Shown here: in pieces, positions 29,182-39,971 of the stretch | Layout: every line of letters starts with the position of its first letter | Numbering within the stretch: the first letter of the stretch is position 1 | Assembly (NCBI RefSeq): GCF_000377985.1 | Contig: NZ_KB899046.1 | Location: 186,001-250,000 of the forward strand | Origin: Sporolactobacillus vineae DSM 21990 = SL153 | GTDB taxonomy: Bacteria; Bacillota; Bacilli; Bacillales; Sporolactobacillaceae | DNA length: 64,000 nucleotides | Direction of reading: 5' to 3' | Position numbers and translations under genes: made by a program | Notes under the pieces: model-generated | Database searches by the model: none | What the model was told of the DNA's origin: nothing | The model's input: the letters and a program-made list of their open reading frames with translations, nothing else

Positions 29182-29198
29182 GTACACAATTAAATAAA

Positions 29199-29303
29199 TC
29201 TTATCAAGAGCGGCGGAGGGACTGGCCCTGTGAAGCCCGACAACCAGCATAGTTTTTTTATGTATGGTGTTAATTCCAGCAGATTAATTTCTGGCAGATA
29301 AGA
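29199..29303 (+). ncRNA. SAM riboswitch (S-box)
   Basis: The closing helix TCTTATC/GATAAGA brackets the conserved core: AAGAGCGGCGGAGGGACTGG, then CCCTGTGAAGCCCGACAACC and the P3/P4 hairpins. This is the classical SAM-I consensus. Binding of S-adenosylmethionine should favour the terminator at 29316-29354 and switch off metY. Confidence 0.95.
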
Positions 29304-29315
29304 AAAGAATCGGCG

Positions 29316-32291: not shown

Positions 32292-32363
32292 TAAGGCGTA
32301 CGGGAATTGAACCCGTGATCATGGAATGAGAATCCATTGGCTTAACCACTTGCCCAACGCCCT
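32292..32363 (-). tRNA. tRNA-Glu, anticodon CUC
   Basis: The 72-nt cloverleaf folds completely: acceptor AGGGCGT/ACGCCTT, 3-bp D stem GGC/GCC around AAGTGGTTAA, anticodon stem ATGGA/TCCAT with loop TTCTCAT, T stem ACGGG/CCCGT with loop TTCAATT, discriminator A. The anticodon CTC reads GAG. Oddities are an A1-U72 first pair, a G.U second pair and no encoded CCA. It stands alone with its own promoter and terminator, 117 bases downstream of deoC. Confidence 0.85.
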
Positions 32364-34462: not shown

Positions 34463-35656
34463 TCATTTTAAGTCATTCAAGAAACTGCTGCCGACGTCAG
34501 GCAGCGGAACACCAAAATTATCGGCAATCGTCGCACCAAGGTCTGCGAACGTCTTCCGAACCGGAAGCGGACGGCCCTCAGCAAACATCGGAGAAGTAGC
34601 CAGAAGCGGTACATATTCCCGCGTATGATCGGTCCCTCTGAAGCCGGGATCATTGCCGTGGTCTGCCGTAATCAGAAGCAGATCATGATCCGAAAGACGA
34701 GACAGGACCGTGCCAAGCTGATTGTCGAAGGCTTCAAGCGCATTCCCGAACTTGACCGGCTCCCGGCGATGCCCGTATTTAGCATCAAAATCAACCAGAT
34801 TGGTAAAGCTCAGACCGTGGAAGTCCTGTGCCAGAACTTCGATCAGGCGGTTCATGCCGTCCTCATTACTGAGCGTGTGCCAGCCCTCGGTAATACCATG
34901 CCCGCTAAAAATATCATTGATCTTTCCGATCGCCAGTGAATCCAATCCCGCTGCTTTCAACTTGTCCATCACTGTCTCTTCCGGCGGTTCAAGCGTTAAA
35001 TCACGACGATTGGCCGTCCGCTCGAAGTTGTCGGCCCGGTCGCCGACATAGGGACGGGCAATAATCCGGCCCAGATGGTACGGTTCATCAAGCGTCAGTT
35101 TCCGGCAGTACGCACAGATCGAATACAATTCTTTTAGCGGAATCACCTGCTCATGAGCGGCAATCTGCAGCACCGAATCGCCTGATGTATAGATAATCAG
35201 CTCCCCGGTCTTCATCTGCCGTTCACCGAACTTTTTAATGATCTCCGTTCCGCTCGCCGGCTTGTTCCAGATCACTTTGCGTCCGCTGAAAGCCTCGATT
35301 TTGCGGATCAGTTCGTCCGGAAAACCATTTGGAAAAGTATGCAGCGGAGTCATTACCGGCAGCCCCATCATTTCCCAGTGACCGTCCATACTGTCTTTTC
35401 CAGCCGAAATTTCATGCATCTTGGTAAAATAAGCGGCGGGCTGCTCCATCACGGCAACCCCTTCGATCGGATTTTCCGGACGAATATTCGACAGTCCCAG
35501 TTTTTCCAGATTGGGCACATGAAGTCCGCTCTTTGCTTTGGCCGTATGGCCCAGTGTATCGCAACCCTCATCGCCATACCTGGCGGCATCTGATGCCTCG
35601 CCGATGCCTACTGAATCCATGACGATGATATGAATACGTTTGAATTTTTCCGCCAT
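34463..35656 (-). CDS. deoB: Phosphopentomutase
   Basis: This 397-aa enzyme converts (deoxy)ribose 1-phosphate to the 5-phosphate. Alkaline-phosphatase-fold metal motifs are [12 protein letters not shown] near the N-terminus and [11 protein letters not shown] with [11 protein letters not shown] near the C-terminus. I chose the second ATG of ATGATG (35656), 6 bases after GGGGG, which gives the usual length. It is the first gene of the operon; no clear promoter or deoR gene was seen. Confidence 0.95.
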
Positions 35657-35775
35657 CATTATCCCCCTGTACAGTCCGGAACCAGTCATAATGGGCTTGC
35701 TTTGCTCAAAGTACGCTGCCCCTGACTGCTTTCGAATCTATTCTCCTGCTATTTTAACCCATCTAAAAAAAAGCC

Positions 35776-35820
35776 GCAAAAAACTCCGGATCAAAAATAT
35801 TTCCTGAGATCCGGAGTTTA
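35776..35820 (-). terminator. Terminator of the ketopantoate-reductase-like gene
   Basis: AAACTCCGGATC/GATCCGGAGTTT is followed on the minus strand by TTT, GCGGC and eight T. Confidence 0.85.
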
Positions 35821-35828
35821 AATGATAA

Positions 35829-36800
35829 TCAGGCTTGTGCTTCAGATACAGCCGGCTCATATTGCCTGGAAGCTTCCTTCAGATGGACAAGATCAACCAG
35901 CATCGCATGCAGCGGCGCTTTCAGGCCATGTTTTTCAGCAAGACGGACAATCGACCCATTGATGTAGTCGACTTCCGTCGGCCTGTTCGTAGCCATATCC
36001 TGATGCATGGACGGATAATGGCGCGGATTGGACACTTCAGAAACAAAGCGAACCTGTTTGACCAGTTCCTCACGGCTGACTTCCAGTTTAATTCCTTCAG
36101 CATCGGTGGCATCATAAGCTTCATCGATCAGTTTCCGGGTCATTTCATCAGAGTTCCTATAGGCCGCAAACTGGCCCATTTTAAGATTCATCAGCGTGCA
36201 CAGCGTGTTGACCACTGAGTTAAAGACGAGCTTCGTCCAGACCGTTCCCAGATAATCCTTTTTAACCGTCGGATGCATCAATGCCTTTTCCATCTCATCG
36301 GCGACTTTGTAGATAAACGGATCAGGTTCTCCTTCCACCTTGACAAGATGGACATGGCCTGCCCCACGTTTGCCGACAAAGTCTACTTTGCCCGGACCTT
36401 TCATTACGGTCGCGATCATAGCTGTACCGGAGATGATCCGTTTCCGGTCGACGAATTTCGCAACATCTTCCGCACCGCCATAGCCGTTCTGGTTTGTGAG
36501 CACGTAGGTATCTTTTCCAATAAAATGTTTGCACCGTTCCATCATTTCAACAGTATGCATGTCTTTAACAAAGACAACAACCAGGTCGGGATGTCCATGA
36601 TATTCCTCAGGATAACAGACAGCAACGTCAACCAGCTTCGGGTCTTTTCCGTCACGTGTTACCTCAACCCCATGATTCTGATGAATGGCATCCACATTGG
36701 CCTTCCATGTGTCGACAAACTGAACATCATTTCCTGCTTCCTGCAATAATACACCATACCTGAGGCCCATTCCTCCTGCTCCTGCAACAACAACCTTCAT
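35829..36800 (-). CDS. Ketopantoate reductase family protein (PanE/ApbA)
   Basis: This 323-aa protein has the NADP-binding start VVVAGAGGMGLRYGVLL and the catalytic Lys region YLGTVWTKLVFNSVVNTLC with Asn two turns later. The family reduces 2-ketopantoate to pantoate, but some lactic bacteria use members as D-2-hydroxyacid dehydrogenases on branched-chain keto acids. AAAGGGAG precedes the ATG. It is a single gene preceded by a 250-nt leader with a small ORF rich in Ile/Leu codons and an attenuator, which supports a link to branched-chain metabolism. No other pan genes are nearby. Confidence 0.82.
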   Translation of the reverse strand: MKVVVAGAGGMGLRYGVLLQEAGNDVQFVDTWKANVDAIHQNHGVEVTRDGKDPKLVDVAVCYPEEYHGHPDLVVVFVKDMHTVEMMERCKHFIGKDTYVLTNQNGYGGAEDVAKFVDRKRIISGTAMIATVMKGPGKVDFVGKRGAGHVHLVKVEGEPDPFIYKVADEMEKALMHPTVKKDYLGTVWTKLVFNSVVNTLCTLMNLKMGQFAAYRNSDEMTRKLIDEAYDATDAEGIKLEVSREELVKQVRFVSEVSNPRHYPSMHQDMATNRPTEVDYINGSIVRLAEKHGLKAPLHAMLVDLVHLKEASRQYEPAVSEAQA

Positions 36801-36862
36801 CCTGTTTCGTCTCCCTTTTCTCTATATTGTGATTTATCGGTCACAAGTCATCATCAGAAGCT

Positions 36863-36899
36863 AAAAAGGGCCCCATCCGGATCACTCTGGATGGGGCCC
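36863..36899 (-). terminator. Leader terminator (attenuator) ahead of the PanE-like gene
   Basis: GGGCCCCATCC/GGATGGGGCCC with a 10-nt loop is followed on the minus strand by five T. It lies 63 bases before the start codon, inside the leader. Upstream GGGGC (minus strand, about 36904-36910) can pair with the GCCCC of this stem as an alternative fold. Confidence 0.8.
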
Positions 36900-36919
36900 C
36901 GCTCAAGCCCCCGCACCAA

Positions 36920-37005
36920 AGCGAACAGGACTCGGGCAAACGCTGTCGTTTCTGCGACAATCGCTTACCGGAGTCCTAACAAATCAAAATAATTCGCTGT
37001 TCGCT
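36920..37005 (-). ncRNA. Structured leader element of the PanE-like gene
   Basis: On the minus strand AGCGAACA (36998-37005) pairs with TGTTCGCT (36920-36927), and directly adjoining AGGACTC pairs with GAGTCCT (36927-36977). Inside is a long stem with a bulged A (AAGCG, A, TTGTCG with CGACAG, CGTTT). The 5' strand of the outer helix lies within the small ORF at 36976-37023, so translation would melt it. I recognised no known riboswitch class. Confidence 0.6.
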
Positions 37006-37023
37006 ATTGTGTGCCGTGGACAT
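36976..37023 (-). CDS. Leader peptide (upstream ORF), 15 aa
   Basis: The ATG at 37023 has AAAGAGG 10 bases upstream. The 15-codon ORF (MSTAHNSEQRIILIC) ends in ATT ATT TTG ATT TGT and a TAG immediately before the large leader hairpin. The run Ile-Ile-Leu-Ile is what one expects of a branched-chain amino acid attenuator. It shares the RIIL tetrapeptide, and the codons CGA ATT ATT TTG, with the leader peptide at 384-452. Confidence 0.55.
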   Translation of the reverse strand: MSTAHNSEQRIILIC

Positions 37024-37066
37024 AAGATTCAGCCTCTTTGATCATGACAATTGTGATTCAGTCATT

Positions 37067-37095
37067 ATTGTACCGACCTCTACCGTCGATGTCAA
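37067..37095 (-). promoter_or_regulatory. Strong sigma-A promoter of the PanE-like leader
   Basis: On the minus strand TTGACA and TACAAT are separated by 17 bases. The predicted start near 37060 gives a leader of about 260 nt. Confidence 0.8.
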
Positions 37096-37159
37096 CCTAA
37101 AAATTTAATATTCTGAAATATGTTTCATCTGTCTTTCAATCTCGCAGCCTGCAGCAGTC

Positions 37160-37203
37160 AAAAAGAGCTACTCTCCGCGAGATACATGCAGAGAACAGCT
37201 CTT
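37160..37203 (-). terminator. Terminator of ldhD
   Basis: AAGAGCTGTTCTC pairs with GAGAGTAGCTCTT on the minus strand, then TTTG. It lies 29 bases after the ldhD stop. Confidence 0.75.
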
Positions 37204-37232
37204 CAGATCACATATTTAAATGCTGCTGATGC

Positions 37233-38261
37233 TTATTTTGCAGCCGGTTCCGGCAGCTTCACTTCTGCTCTGCCAAGATCGCCGCCGTTAATAACGGTAT
37301 TGAAGTTGTCATAGCTTGTGGAAATCATATTCGAAACGGCTTCGTCCGTCATCGCAGCGACGTGCGGCGTAACGAGTACTTTCGGATACAGGCTCAGCAG
37401 TTCCTTGATCGATGCATCAGGGAAGGCATCCGGATTGTCGGAATAATCCTTGCCGAGGAAGCGTCCTTCTTCCGTCAGAACGTCAGCACCGAAGCCGGCG
37501 AGCTTGCCGCTCTTAATCGCTTTGACAACAGCCGCTTCGTCAACCAGTTCGCCACGAGCCGTATTGACGAGAATCGCGCCGTCTTTCATTTTGCTGATGA
37601 AGTCTTCGCCGACAAAGTTTTCATTCTTGCCAGGGAAGTAAGGAAGATGCAGGCTGACAATATCCGATTCAGCAAGCAGTTCGTCCAGTTCCTTGAATTC
37701 AACGAGTTTCTTGGCAAAGTCGCTCTGGAAAATATCATAGCCGAGCAATTTCGCACCAAGGCCCTTGTACAGCTCTGCTTCAACGCAGCCGATGTGGCCG
37801 GTGCCTACGATGCCGACGGTGCTCTTGCGGATTTCATGGCTGAACATTGTTTCAGTAACTTTGAAGTTCAGCTTTGCTGTTCTGCCGGATGAATAAACCG
37901 TCGAACGGGACAGTGAAGTGCCGAGTGAAACAGCCAGTTCGGCAATCGCATTCGGTGAATAAGCAGGAACACGAGCCACTTTCTGACCGAAGTCAGCGGC
38001 GGCCTGCAGATCGATGTGGTTGTAGCCGGCCGTCCGTGTGAAGACATACTTGATACCGAAGTCTTTGAACTTCTTCAGGTTGGCACGGTTTGCCAGGCAA
38101 TCGACAAACAACAGAACACCGTCAAAGCCTTCAGCCAGATCGCCGTTATCAGCAGTCAGCAGATCGTTAACCAGTTTGACGTCAAAGCCATACTTATTCA
38201 GTTCGCCATACAAGTGTTCTTCATAGGGCTGAACGCCGTATGCAATGATTTTGAAAGCCAT
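37233..38261 (-). CDS. ldhD: D-lactate dehydrogenase
   Basis: This 342-aa NAD-dependent D-2-hydroxyacid dehydrogenase has the NAD-binding VGIVGTGHIGCVEAELYKG, catalytic Arg in LVNTARGELVD, Glu in GADVLTEEG and His in VTPHVAAMTDEA. Residues YVFTRTAGYNHID fit D-lactate dehydrogenases of lactobacilli. It makes D-lactate from pyruvate and regenerates NAD, the main fermentation outlet expected in Sporolactobacillus. I chose the ATG at 38261 because AGGAGG lies 10 bases upstream. A single gene with a 210-nt leader and possible redox operators. Confidence 0.93.
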   Translation of the reverse strand: MAFKIIAYGVQPYEEHLYGELNKYGFDVKLVNDLLTADNGDLAEGFDGVLLFVDCLANRANLKKFKDFGIKYVFTRTAGYNHIDLQAAADFGQKVARVPAYSPNAIAELAVSLGTSLSRSTVYSSGRTAKLNFKVTETMFSHEIRKSTVGIVGTGHIGCVEAELYKGLGAKLLGYDIFQSDFAKKLVEFKELDELLAESDIVSLHLPYFPGKNENFVGEDFISKMKDGAILVNTARGELVDEAAVVKAIKSGKLAGFGADVLTEEGRFLGKDYSDNPDAFPDASIKELLSLYPKVLVTPHVAAMTDEAVSNMISTSYDNFNTVINGGDLGRAEVKLPEPAAK

Positions 38262-38347
38262 TCTTAAACATCCTCCTAAAAAAATTTTATTCTCCACCGG
38301 GCATTTCTGAATATCCGGCTGTAACCAGGTCACTTGTGAAAATTATT

Positions 38348-38367
38348 TTCGTGATGCTCTTCACAAG
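38348..38367. promoter_or_regulatory. Candidate redox operator in the ldhD leader
   Basis: On the minus strand the site reads TTGTGAAGAGCATCACGAA, an inverted repeat close to Rex (TTGTGAA/TTCACAA) or to CRP/FNR/ArcR-type TGTGA-N6-TCACA sites, with one mismatch. It lies about 100 bases downstream of the transcription start. Confidence 0.35.
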
Positions 38368-38474
38368 ACGTGGAAAGGAACAATGCTCTTTATTCTGAGC
38401 TGCGCCAATGCCCTGCTGCGCCTATTCTCCCCTGTTAAGAAGAGAAATATGATGAAATTCTTTTTTACATAAAA

Positions 38475-38503
38475 ATTATATCATTGACAGTAACCGACGG
38501 CAA
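38475..38503 (-). promoter_or_regulatory. Sigma-A promoter of ldhD
   Basis: On the minus strand TTGCCG and TATAAT are separated by 17 bases. The rest of the 426-base gap up to ugd (38504-38687) contains TGTGA-N12-TCACA near 38534-38556 and no ORF. Confidence 0.7.
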
Positions 38504-38687
38504 TCTGACAATGTGCCGAAAAAGTGTTTTTTATGTGAACATGATATTAATCACACCCCTCCTCTCCTCGCTTCGATTACGTTCTTCCGCCAAAGGCCCG
38601 TTATAAGTCGGACAACTTACTCTTCGTCCCACGCTGAATACATTGTTAACAGTCCATGAACTACGAATGCTTCGGAGGTGGCGGGTC

Positions 38688-39971
38688 ATTAAAATTCTAA
38701 TCGTCGGAACTGGGTACGTTGGTACGACTACGGCCCTTGTATTTTGTGAGAAAGGTCATCAGGTGACCGGCCTGGATCTTGATCAGGAAAAAATTGAGAA
38801 ACTTCAATCAGGTCAGCTTCATTTCTTTGAGCCCGGGTTACCGGATTTACTCAAAGAACATCTTCAGGCAGGGAACCTCTCTTTTACAACAAACAGTTCT
38901 GCAGCCATTAAGCAAAACGACATCATTTTTATTTGCGTCGGTACTCCGCAAGGAAAGGATGGTAATGCTGATCTAAGATACGTCAAAAATGTTGCTGAAG
39001 AGATTGGAAAGAATCTGAACGCCTATAAAGTCATCGTTGATAAGAGTACTGTTCCTGTCGGGACGGCTGGCAAAGTCCGTGACTGGATCCAGCAGAATAA
39101 GAAAAAAGGAGTTCCATTCGATGTTGTTTCAAATCCCGAGTTTCTGCGTGAGGGTTCCGCATTGAGGGATGCGTTACACCCCGACAGGATCGTCATCGGC
39201 TATTCCGGTGCAAAATCCCGTGAAATGATGCGTGAACTCTATAAAGATTTCCGGTGCCCGGTTGTCGAGACAACACCTAAAACAGCCGAGATGATTAAAT
39301 ATGCTGCCAATTCATTTCTGGCTCTTAAAATTTCCTTTATTAATGAACTCGCACGATTGTGCGACCGGTTGGAACTGGAAATCGATGACATATCCAGAGG
39401 GATCGGACTTGACCGGCGGATCGGCGAAGCGTTTCTGAAAGCCGGCATCGGCTATGGAGGATCCTGCTTTCCTAAAGATGTCAATGCGCTGCTCAAAACA
39501 GCGGAATCGCATCATCAGTCACTTTCAATAATGGAGGCAGCTGTTACTGTCAACAAAACACAGCCCGAGTATTTTATCAGGGAACTTGAGACTGCGCTTG
39601 GCGGTCTGCAGGACAAAACCGTCGCTGTACTCGGATTGGCGTTTAAACCGGATACTGACGATATACGTGAGTCCCCGGGTTTAAATGTGATTCATCAGCT
39701 GATCAAGGCAGGAGCTAAAGTAAAAGCACATGATCCGGCTGTAAAATCAGGATCAGATGCCATCTTTGAGCAGCTTGCCACTGTTGCGCAATGTGTCACT
39801 GATTCAGACGCTGTCATTTTGTGTACCGGCTGGCAACAGTACGAAGCAATTGACTGGAAAGAAGTCAGAAAACGGGTACGCAGTCCTTTTATCTTTGACG
39901 GCAAAAATGTATTAAATCCGGATCAAATCAGGCAGGCCGGTTTCAATTATTACGCGATCGGCAAAAGATGA
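38688..39971 (+). CDS. ugd: UDP-glucose 6-dehydrogenase
   Basis: This 427-aa enzyme oxidises UDP-glucose to UDP-glucuronate with 2 NAD. It begins IKILIVGTGYVGTTTALVF (NAD site); catalytic Cys is in GYGGSCFPKDV and the conserved Lys in KYAANSFLALKISFINE. I place the start at the ATT at 38688 because GGAGGTGG lies 9 bases upstream and the protein then begins at the conserved MKI-type N-terminus. An in-frame ATG at 38667 is possible, but the ribosome binding site would be inside the gene. It supplies UDP-glucuronate to the decarboxylase at 47495-48445. Confidence 0.9.
   Translation: MKILIVGTGYVGTTTALVFCEKGHQVTGLDLDQEKIEKLQSGQLHFFEPGLPDLLKEHLQAGNLSFTTNSSAAIKQNDIIFICVGTPQGKDGNADLRYVKNVAEEIGKNLNAYKVIVDKSTVPVGTAGKVRDWIQQNKKKGVPFDVVSNPEFLREGSALRDALHPDRIVIGYSGAKSREMMRELYKDFRCPVVETTPKTAEMIKYAANSFLALKISFINELARLCDRLELEIDDISRGIGLDRRIGEAFLKAGIGYGGSCFPKDVNALLKTAESHHQSLSIMEAAVTVNKTQPEYFIRELETALGGLQDKTVAVLGLAFKPDTDDIRESPGLNVIHQLIKAGAKVKAHDPAVKSGSDAIFEQLATVAQCVTDSDAVILCTGWQQYEAIDWKEVRKRVRSPFIFDGKNVLNPDQIRQAGFNYYAIGKR

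Follow-up and report, generated by a model that had tools for sequence, protein, structure and literature searches.

We propose, at a rough probability of 0.8, that the PanE-like gene of Sporolactobacillus vineae DSM 21990 is controlled by an attenuator that senses branched-chain amino acid (BCAA) tRNAs and belongs to a leader family shared with ilvD, and that the PanE-like enzyme is a branched-chain D-2-hydroxyacid dehydrogenase, not an enzyme of the pantothenate pathway. The leader probably senses Leu/Ile/Val shortage through translation of a tiny peptide. The analysis is computational throughout (folding, covariance models and homology searches), and the window is the whole 64,000-nt stretch of DNA that was analysed.

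Architecture of the leader upstream of the PanE-like gene

From promoter to gene, the locus comprises the following features.

37067–37095, minus strand: promoter TTGACA-N17-TACAAT, with the –35 TTGACA starting from 37095, the –10 TACAAT at 37072–37067 and a 17-bp spacer
37033–37037, minus strand: Shine-Dalgarno-like AGAGG of the leader ORF (relatives carry AGAAGG, AGAGG or similar)
36976–37023, minus strand: leader ORF MSTAHNSEQRIILIC*, 15 codons plus TAG, with its ATG at 37023
36999–37026, minus strand: strand 1, the 5′ strand of outer helix P1 in the minimum-energy fold, which begins slightly upstream of the start codon and extends to codon 9, with its core in codons 4–9
36927–36977, minus strand: hairpin P3 (AGGACUC...GAGUCCU) of the fold, starting at the stop codon, with compensatory pairs in non-panE leaders
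36902–36926, minus strand: strand 2, the partner of strand 1 in P1 and of the terminator 5′ arm in the proposed antiterminator
36863–36900, minus strand: predicted intrinsic GC-rich terminator with a U tract, lying between leader ORF and gene in the fold; its 5′ arm is strand 3
35829–36800, minus strand: controlled gene, ApbA/PanE family, 323 aa (Pfam ApbA 4.1e-31, ApbA_C 3.4e-34)

The original prediction had described a consensus promoter, a 15-codon ORF ending Ile-Ile-Leu-Ile-Cys, a compound hairpin whose 5′ strand lies inside that ORF, and a GC-rich terminator 63 bases before the gene. The promoter (11 of 12 consensus matches) and the ORF with its C-terminal Ile-Ile-Leu-Ile-Cys (37023–36976, minus strand) are confirmed, as is the hairpin in the minimum-energy fold (P1, 37026–36999 with 36926–36902); the GC-rich terminator also stands, and its distance to the gene ATG (36800) is corrected to 62 bases. 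The promoter scores highest among 13 promoter-like sites in a scan of 35000–39500, and the same pattern occurs at 15 other loci of the genus (L003–L016 and L075) and, by eye, at L072.

The leader folds at –105 kcal/mol versus –63.4 ± 4.7 kcal/mol for dinucleotide shuffles (z –8.8; none of the 200 shuffles as stable), and the full-length fold additionally pairs the Shine-Dalgarno region (37037–37028) with the end of the U tract (36865–36856). A simple terminator scan did not flag the terminator at 36900–36863. The PanE-like gene is apparently monocistronic. Visual inspection shows a hairpin and T run behind it, where the terminator scanner reported none. The gene is flanked by a D-2-hydroxyacid (D-lactate) dehydrogenase gene upstream and by deoB and pdp downstream; deoB also lies downstream in 14 named loci (L062–L075; about 2.7 kb on in L075) and in L005, and not in L017, which comes from another genus. 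Elsewhere the window contains a SAM riboswitch (RF00162, 83.6 bits, 29198–29304, plus strand) and a tRNA gene (Rfam match, 32292–32363, minus strand).

Conservation of the leader before panE orthologues

The Sporolactobacillus sample consists of 15 genomes including DSM 21990, to which strains THM7-4 and THM7-7 were added for the PanE-like orthologues (17 in total). Of these 17 sequences, DSM 21990 counted, 16 have a homologous leader in front of the gene, and the leader is therefore not a chance structure. The exception, strain THM7-7 (L075, upstream of 3001), keeps the promoter and ORF start and has lost the remaining attenuator, which amounts to a natural deletion. In another genus of the family, the two orthologues L017 and L018 lack such a leader. 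A direct DNA search with a 208-base query returned long matches only in G002 (138 bases), G009 (120 bases) and G010 (117 bases).

In each of the 15 distinct panE leaders, the encoded peptide has a Val/Ile/Leu run close to its end (e.g. VVVILIS). The TAG stop is shared by 13 of them, while THM19-2 and THM7-4 read on to a later stop. The N-terminal half of the peptide diverges and its RNA still pairs with strand 2; the terminator is homologous across the 15 aligned panE leaders and covaries among the non-panE leaders. These features bear on whether the small ORF might instead encode a functional hydrophobic peptide, with the RNA structure merely limiting its expression. The conserved, hydrophobic C-terminal end would suit such a peptide, but both the divergence of an N-terminal half whose RNA keeps its pairing and the readthrough of the stop in some lineages argue otherwise, making this reading highly improbable.

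Sensing of tRNA or metabolite by the RNA itself, as in a T-box or metabolite riboswitch, deserves consideration in a T-box-rich genus (16 matches at E ≤ 0.001 in the DSM 21990 genome). However, no Rfam 15 family matches the leader at gathering score, the best match up to E 10 being a sub-threshold hit of ctRNA_pGA1 over the terminator (29.1 of 45 bits, E 8e-4), and none matches at gathering score in six ilv/ilvD loci. T-box RF00230 in particular has no match in the window at gathering score, nor around the leader up to E 10. Together with the conservation of in-frame BCAA codons, these results make a riboswitch the least probable of the explanations considered.

A related leader family at ilvD and PanS-like genes

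Two covariance models were used to look for relatives, R1 built from eight panE leaders and R2 from 13 non-panE leaders, of which five stand before ilvD, one before a BASS gene and seven next to ilvB with no intact ilvD behind. The R2 seed retains 13 of the 16 rows of its parent alignment, G013 and G003 (near copies) and the doubtful G010_C8 having been removed before counting. R1 also matched places near ilv genes, and R2 places a related leader before ilvD, located by tblastn, in all 15 genomes. The ilvD leader of DSM 21990 itself (G000:C4:2031-2200) encodes the peptide MLFPFNNRVVNVLIIS* and is divergent from ilvB. Since R2 finds panE leaders and R1 finds ilvD-type ones, the two sets are related. 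The element thus appears from these matches to be one of a leader family, which goes beyond the view taken in the original prediction. In G014 (L164) the ilvD match is split over two overlapping frames.

R2 also detects a leader before a PanS-like BASS gene in three genomes (G003, G011 and G012); the G011 leader scores 53 bits, and the scan found no peptide in it. NCBIfam PanS is the best match of the two BASS proteins tested, neither score (247 and 284 bits) reaching its cut-off of 400 bits. Behind ilvD lies a first BASS gene in 9 of 9 genomes in which the examined region is uninterrupted by a contig end, the other six genomes lying outside this count. The PanE paralogues L200 and L201 of DSM 21990 have no R2 match. 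Both panE and ilvD leaders are kept in G008 (S. kofuensis; ilvD leader L139) and G001 (S. spathodeae; L140), the panE leader of G001 being found by R1, and these are the two genomes in which ilvC and anabolic ilvB do not score above cut-offs (13 of 15 do).

Nine genomes have a leader beside and divergent from ilvB (L147, L150–L154, L157, L158 and L165) with no ilvD within 1.5 kb behind it, and in G002 (L163) the ilvB-side leader is accompanied by ilvD fragments corresponding to residues 1–68 and 431–466. Because ilvD is absent or fragmentary behind them, these ilvB-side leaders appear to be remnants of an ilvD that was moved or duplicated. A possible further member in G010 (L141 2436–2607, plus strand; R2 45.8 bits; peptide MLIKINENNILLILIS) precedes a 400-aa protein without a Pfam match and an M20 amidohydrolase.

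Antisense matches over leaders reach 44 bits within the genus, and weak matches were therefore not counted. Run over 397 genomes of the order, R2 gave a match at E ≤ 0.01 in 78, nine of them Sporolactobacillus; under strict filters no convincing member emerged among the 388 genomes outside the genus, and R2 matched none of the seven members of the same family that belong to other genera. From the 69 matching genomes outside the genus, five loci were inspected (L177, L178, L179, L180 and L183), none of which showed a short ORF with a BCAA end in the scan. L178, L179, L180 and L183 look like terminators, while L177 contains GGGTGGTACCGCG, which we take to be a T-box motif. That terminators alone yield many weak model matches might suggest that the PanE-like gene, too, is preceded by a plain terminator and an incidental small ORF, with no regulation. 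This is very unlikely, as a promoter lies upstream of both ORF and terminator, and the peptide end, P1 and P3 reappear throughout the genus, in front of ilvD as well.

Codon usage and covariation in the leaders

Statistics on peptides, pairing and footprints were obtained for 31 leaders (15 panE, 15 ilvD and one BASS2), the peptide end being taken at the place homologous to the stop in the four read-through leaders. Over the last eight codons, Ile/Leu/Val account for 175 of 248 codons in frame, versus 63 and 53 when either other frame is read and a mean of 75.8 (maximum 93) in 100 shuffles.

Duplexes between strand 1 and the leader's own strand 2 reach –21.0 kcal/mol in the 15 panE leaders, versus –16.0 kcal/mol with swapped partners (0 of 20,000 permutations, relatedness ignored), and P1 is better than shuffles at p ≤ 0.05 in 27 of the 31 leaders. 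Across the 13 non-panE leaders, 94.1% of cells are paired (87.6% when shuffled) and 36 cells carry double changes (13.9 when shuffled; both 0/500); these double changes fall mostly in the terminator and P3, and P1 contributes one pair only. The eight close panE leaders alone show six pairs changed on both sides versus 2.9 expected from shuffles (11/500), a modest signal, and RNAalifold gave no P1 for the 15 panE leaders. The original prediction had been staked on covariation among homologous leaders, and on the ORF being conserved or the hairpins matching no riboswitch; the searches found covariation, and did not find an unconserved ORF combined with riboswitch-like hairpins.

The antiterminator helix gives no own-versus-swapped partner signal (1766 of 20,000), and the leaders in which it is better than shuffles at p ≤ 0.05 number 18 of 31, the panE leader of DSM 21990 (p 0.105) not among them. 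Of all steps in the mechanism set out below, the pairing between strand 2 and the terminator 5′ arm has the least support.

Folding under ribosome footprints and the proposed mechanism

When Val/Ile/Leu are plentiful, the ribosome would reach the stop codon and leave strand 1, with its core in codons 4–9, free; strand 1 would then pair with strand 2 as P1, so that the terminator forms and transcription ends short of the PanE-like gene. Scarcity of these amino acids would stall the ribosome at the first codons of the C-terminal Val/Ile/Leu run, its footprint hiding strand 1, whereupon strand 2 would join the terminator 5′ arm and the PanE-like gene would be transcribed.

For all 31 leaders we folded transcripts truncated in the terminator loop, imposing a ribosome footprint of 31 nt and setting the first BCAA-run codon by hand in the four read-through ones. 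Masking strand 1 eliminates P1 by construction, and the test therefore informs mainly on codon position and on the alternative partner. P1 leads in 26 leaders and the antiterminator in 5 when no ribosome is placed. Once the first codon of the run occupies the A site, the antiterminator is ahead in all 31 leaders (15 of 15 panE), an effect that fades along the run to 16 of 31 (8 of 15 panE) at four codons further on. A ribosome at the stop codon leaves P1 leading in 14 leaders, the antiterminator in 4 and neither in the others. In the DSM 21990 panE leader, the first three run codons give 11.9 expected antiterminator pairs and no P1, and a ribosome at the stop codon restores P1 (23.4 pairs versus 0.1 for the antiterminator). 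In these models the first Val/Ile/Leu codons are the most effective stall sites, in keeping with classical stall-and-antiterminate logic. The peptide end, the covariation of P1, the ilvD leader and the footprint folding all support the BCAA leader-peptide attenuator that the original prediction had put forward as a candidate.

Function of the PanE-like enzyme

The PanE-like protein scores above the TIGR00745 cut-off, the other NCBIfam models listed falling below theirs. Its nearest solved chains among the matches listed are the group of 8wl1, 2ew2 and 3wfi (157–192 bits), with 1ks9 from E. coli at 52.7 bits; all 20 chains listed, the former three included, are named 2-dehydropantoate 2-reductase or similar. 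We take 3wfi to be a D-mandelate dehydrogenase. The PanE-like protein shares with 8wl1, 2ew2 and 3wfi an Asp after the second strand, its VDTW aligning with IDNW, IDQW and IDGW; an Asp at the end of this strand favours NAD.

No panB was found in any of the 15 genomes (controls positive in 11 of 14). panC occurs in 10 of the 15, the five genomes lacking it including DSM 21990 (controls positive in 9 of 14), and all five retain the PanE-like gene and its leader. Ten of the 15 Sporolactobacillus genomes accordingly carry panC without panB. A branched-chain aminotransferase scores above cut-off in all 15. Because panB is missing throughout and panC is missing in DSM 21990, these gene inventories favour a role on branched 2-keto/2-hydroxy acids over pantothenate synthesis, and since the leader family is common to ilvD, the enzyme is most likely a D-2-hydroxyacid dehydrogenase acting on such acids. 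A role on branched 2-keto acids had already been suggested in the original prediction; it is strengthened by the absence of panB, the lack of panC in five genomes including DSM 21990, the universal aminotransferase and the putative co-control with ilvD, and we continue to infer it.

Alternatively, the attenuator is real and the enzyme a true ketopantoate reductase, the switch coupling CoA-precursor supply to the keto acids of the valine pathway, perhaps with PanS-like import of ketopantoate or pantoate. Membership of the ApbA/PanE family, the ten genomes with panC and the PanS-like BASS genes adjoining ilvD would fit this arrangement, but it must accommodate the universal lack of panB, the five genomes that dispense with panC and yet keep gene and leader, and the presence in DSM 21990 of three further PanE-family genes that could serve instead. 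We regard it as unlikely. A counterpoint to the preferred dehydrogenase is that the reason for BCAA shortage to induce a keto-acid-reducing enzyme is not obvious.

BASS proteins reportedly carry pantoate, pyruvate, glycolate or chain-elongated 2-keto acids, and a Neisseria BASS protein bound pantoate, not ketopantoate (PMC10645422). As a tentative extension of the dehydrogenase reading, to which we give rather less than even odds, the leaders may define a BCAA-starvation regulon in which branched keto acids would be made by IlvD, branched 2-hydroxy or 2-keto acids imported by PanS-like BASS proteins, and 2-hydroxy acids oxidised by the PanE-like enzyme to keto acids for transamination, one attenuator family having been copied to all of these genes and persisting in S. 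kofuensis and S. spathodeae.

Comparison with known systems

PanE annotations can mislead, and regulation offers independent evidence on enzyme function. If the present reading is correct, a family common to ilvD, a PanE-like dehydrogenase and PanS-like transporters ties hydroxy-acid metabolism to BCAA supply in D-lactate producers, leader-peptide attenuation is added where T-boxes are usual, and one leader has been copied between unlinked genes inside one genus. Among the open-access literature matches listed, there is no earlier description of such a leader for Sporolactobacillus or for any panE gene; the mechanism is of a known kind, and we did not find the RNA family or its PanE-like and PanS-like targets described. 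PanE of Lactococcus lactis, reportedly characterised by Chambellon in 2009 as a D-2-hydroxyacid dehydrogenase for branched 2-keto acids, is likewise PanE-annotated and has the role proposed here, a likeness of reported role only; we know of no leader of this kind for it.

In the ilv and leu leaders of E. coli and Salmonella, 1:2, 2:3 and 3:4 pairings compete, control codons lie beside strand 1, and the targets are biosynthetic operons. The mechanism proposed for the Sporolactobacillus leader would follow this 1:2 / 2:3 / 3:4 logic, as judged by description. Corynebacterium ilvBNC has a conserved short ORF before a branched-chain operon (PMC10272879) and is alike, by description, in having such an ORF before a BCAA-related gene, in another phylum and with another gene and RNA. 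The Veillonella ilvD motif, some examples of which have a downstream terminator, is alike by description as an RNA before ilvD, and is called a weak riboswitch candidate there, with its mechanism unassigned (PMC8632094). Histidine leader peptides in bacilli provide a related precedent (PMC2965389).

The closest described case found is the ilvD attenuator of S. aureus, reported in a paper that also names the E. coli and Salmonella ilv and leu leader attenuators (PMC5794164). As described there, the S. aureus element has an Ile/Leu-rich peptide and a proposed antiterminator that pairs GAAUGG with the poly-U tail, leaving the terminator stem intact. The two systems are alike in placing a leader ORF of BCAA codons and a terminator before ilvD in Bacilli, with stalling proposed to favour readthrough. 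By the same description, the Sporolactobacillus leader differs in the proposed alternative partner of strand 2, which is the terminator 5′ arm, and in also standing before a PanE-like gene and PanS-like transporters.
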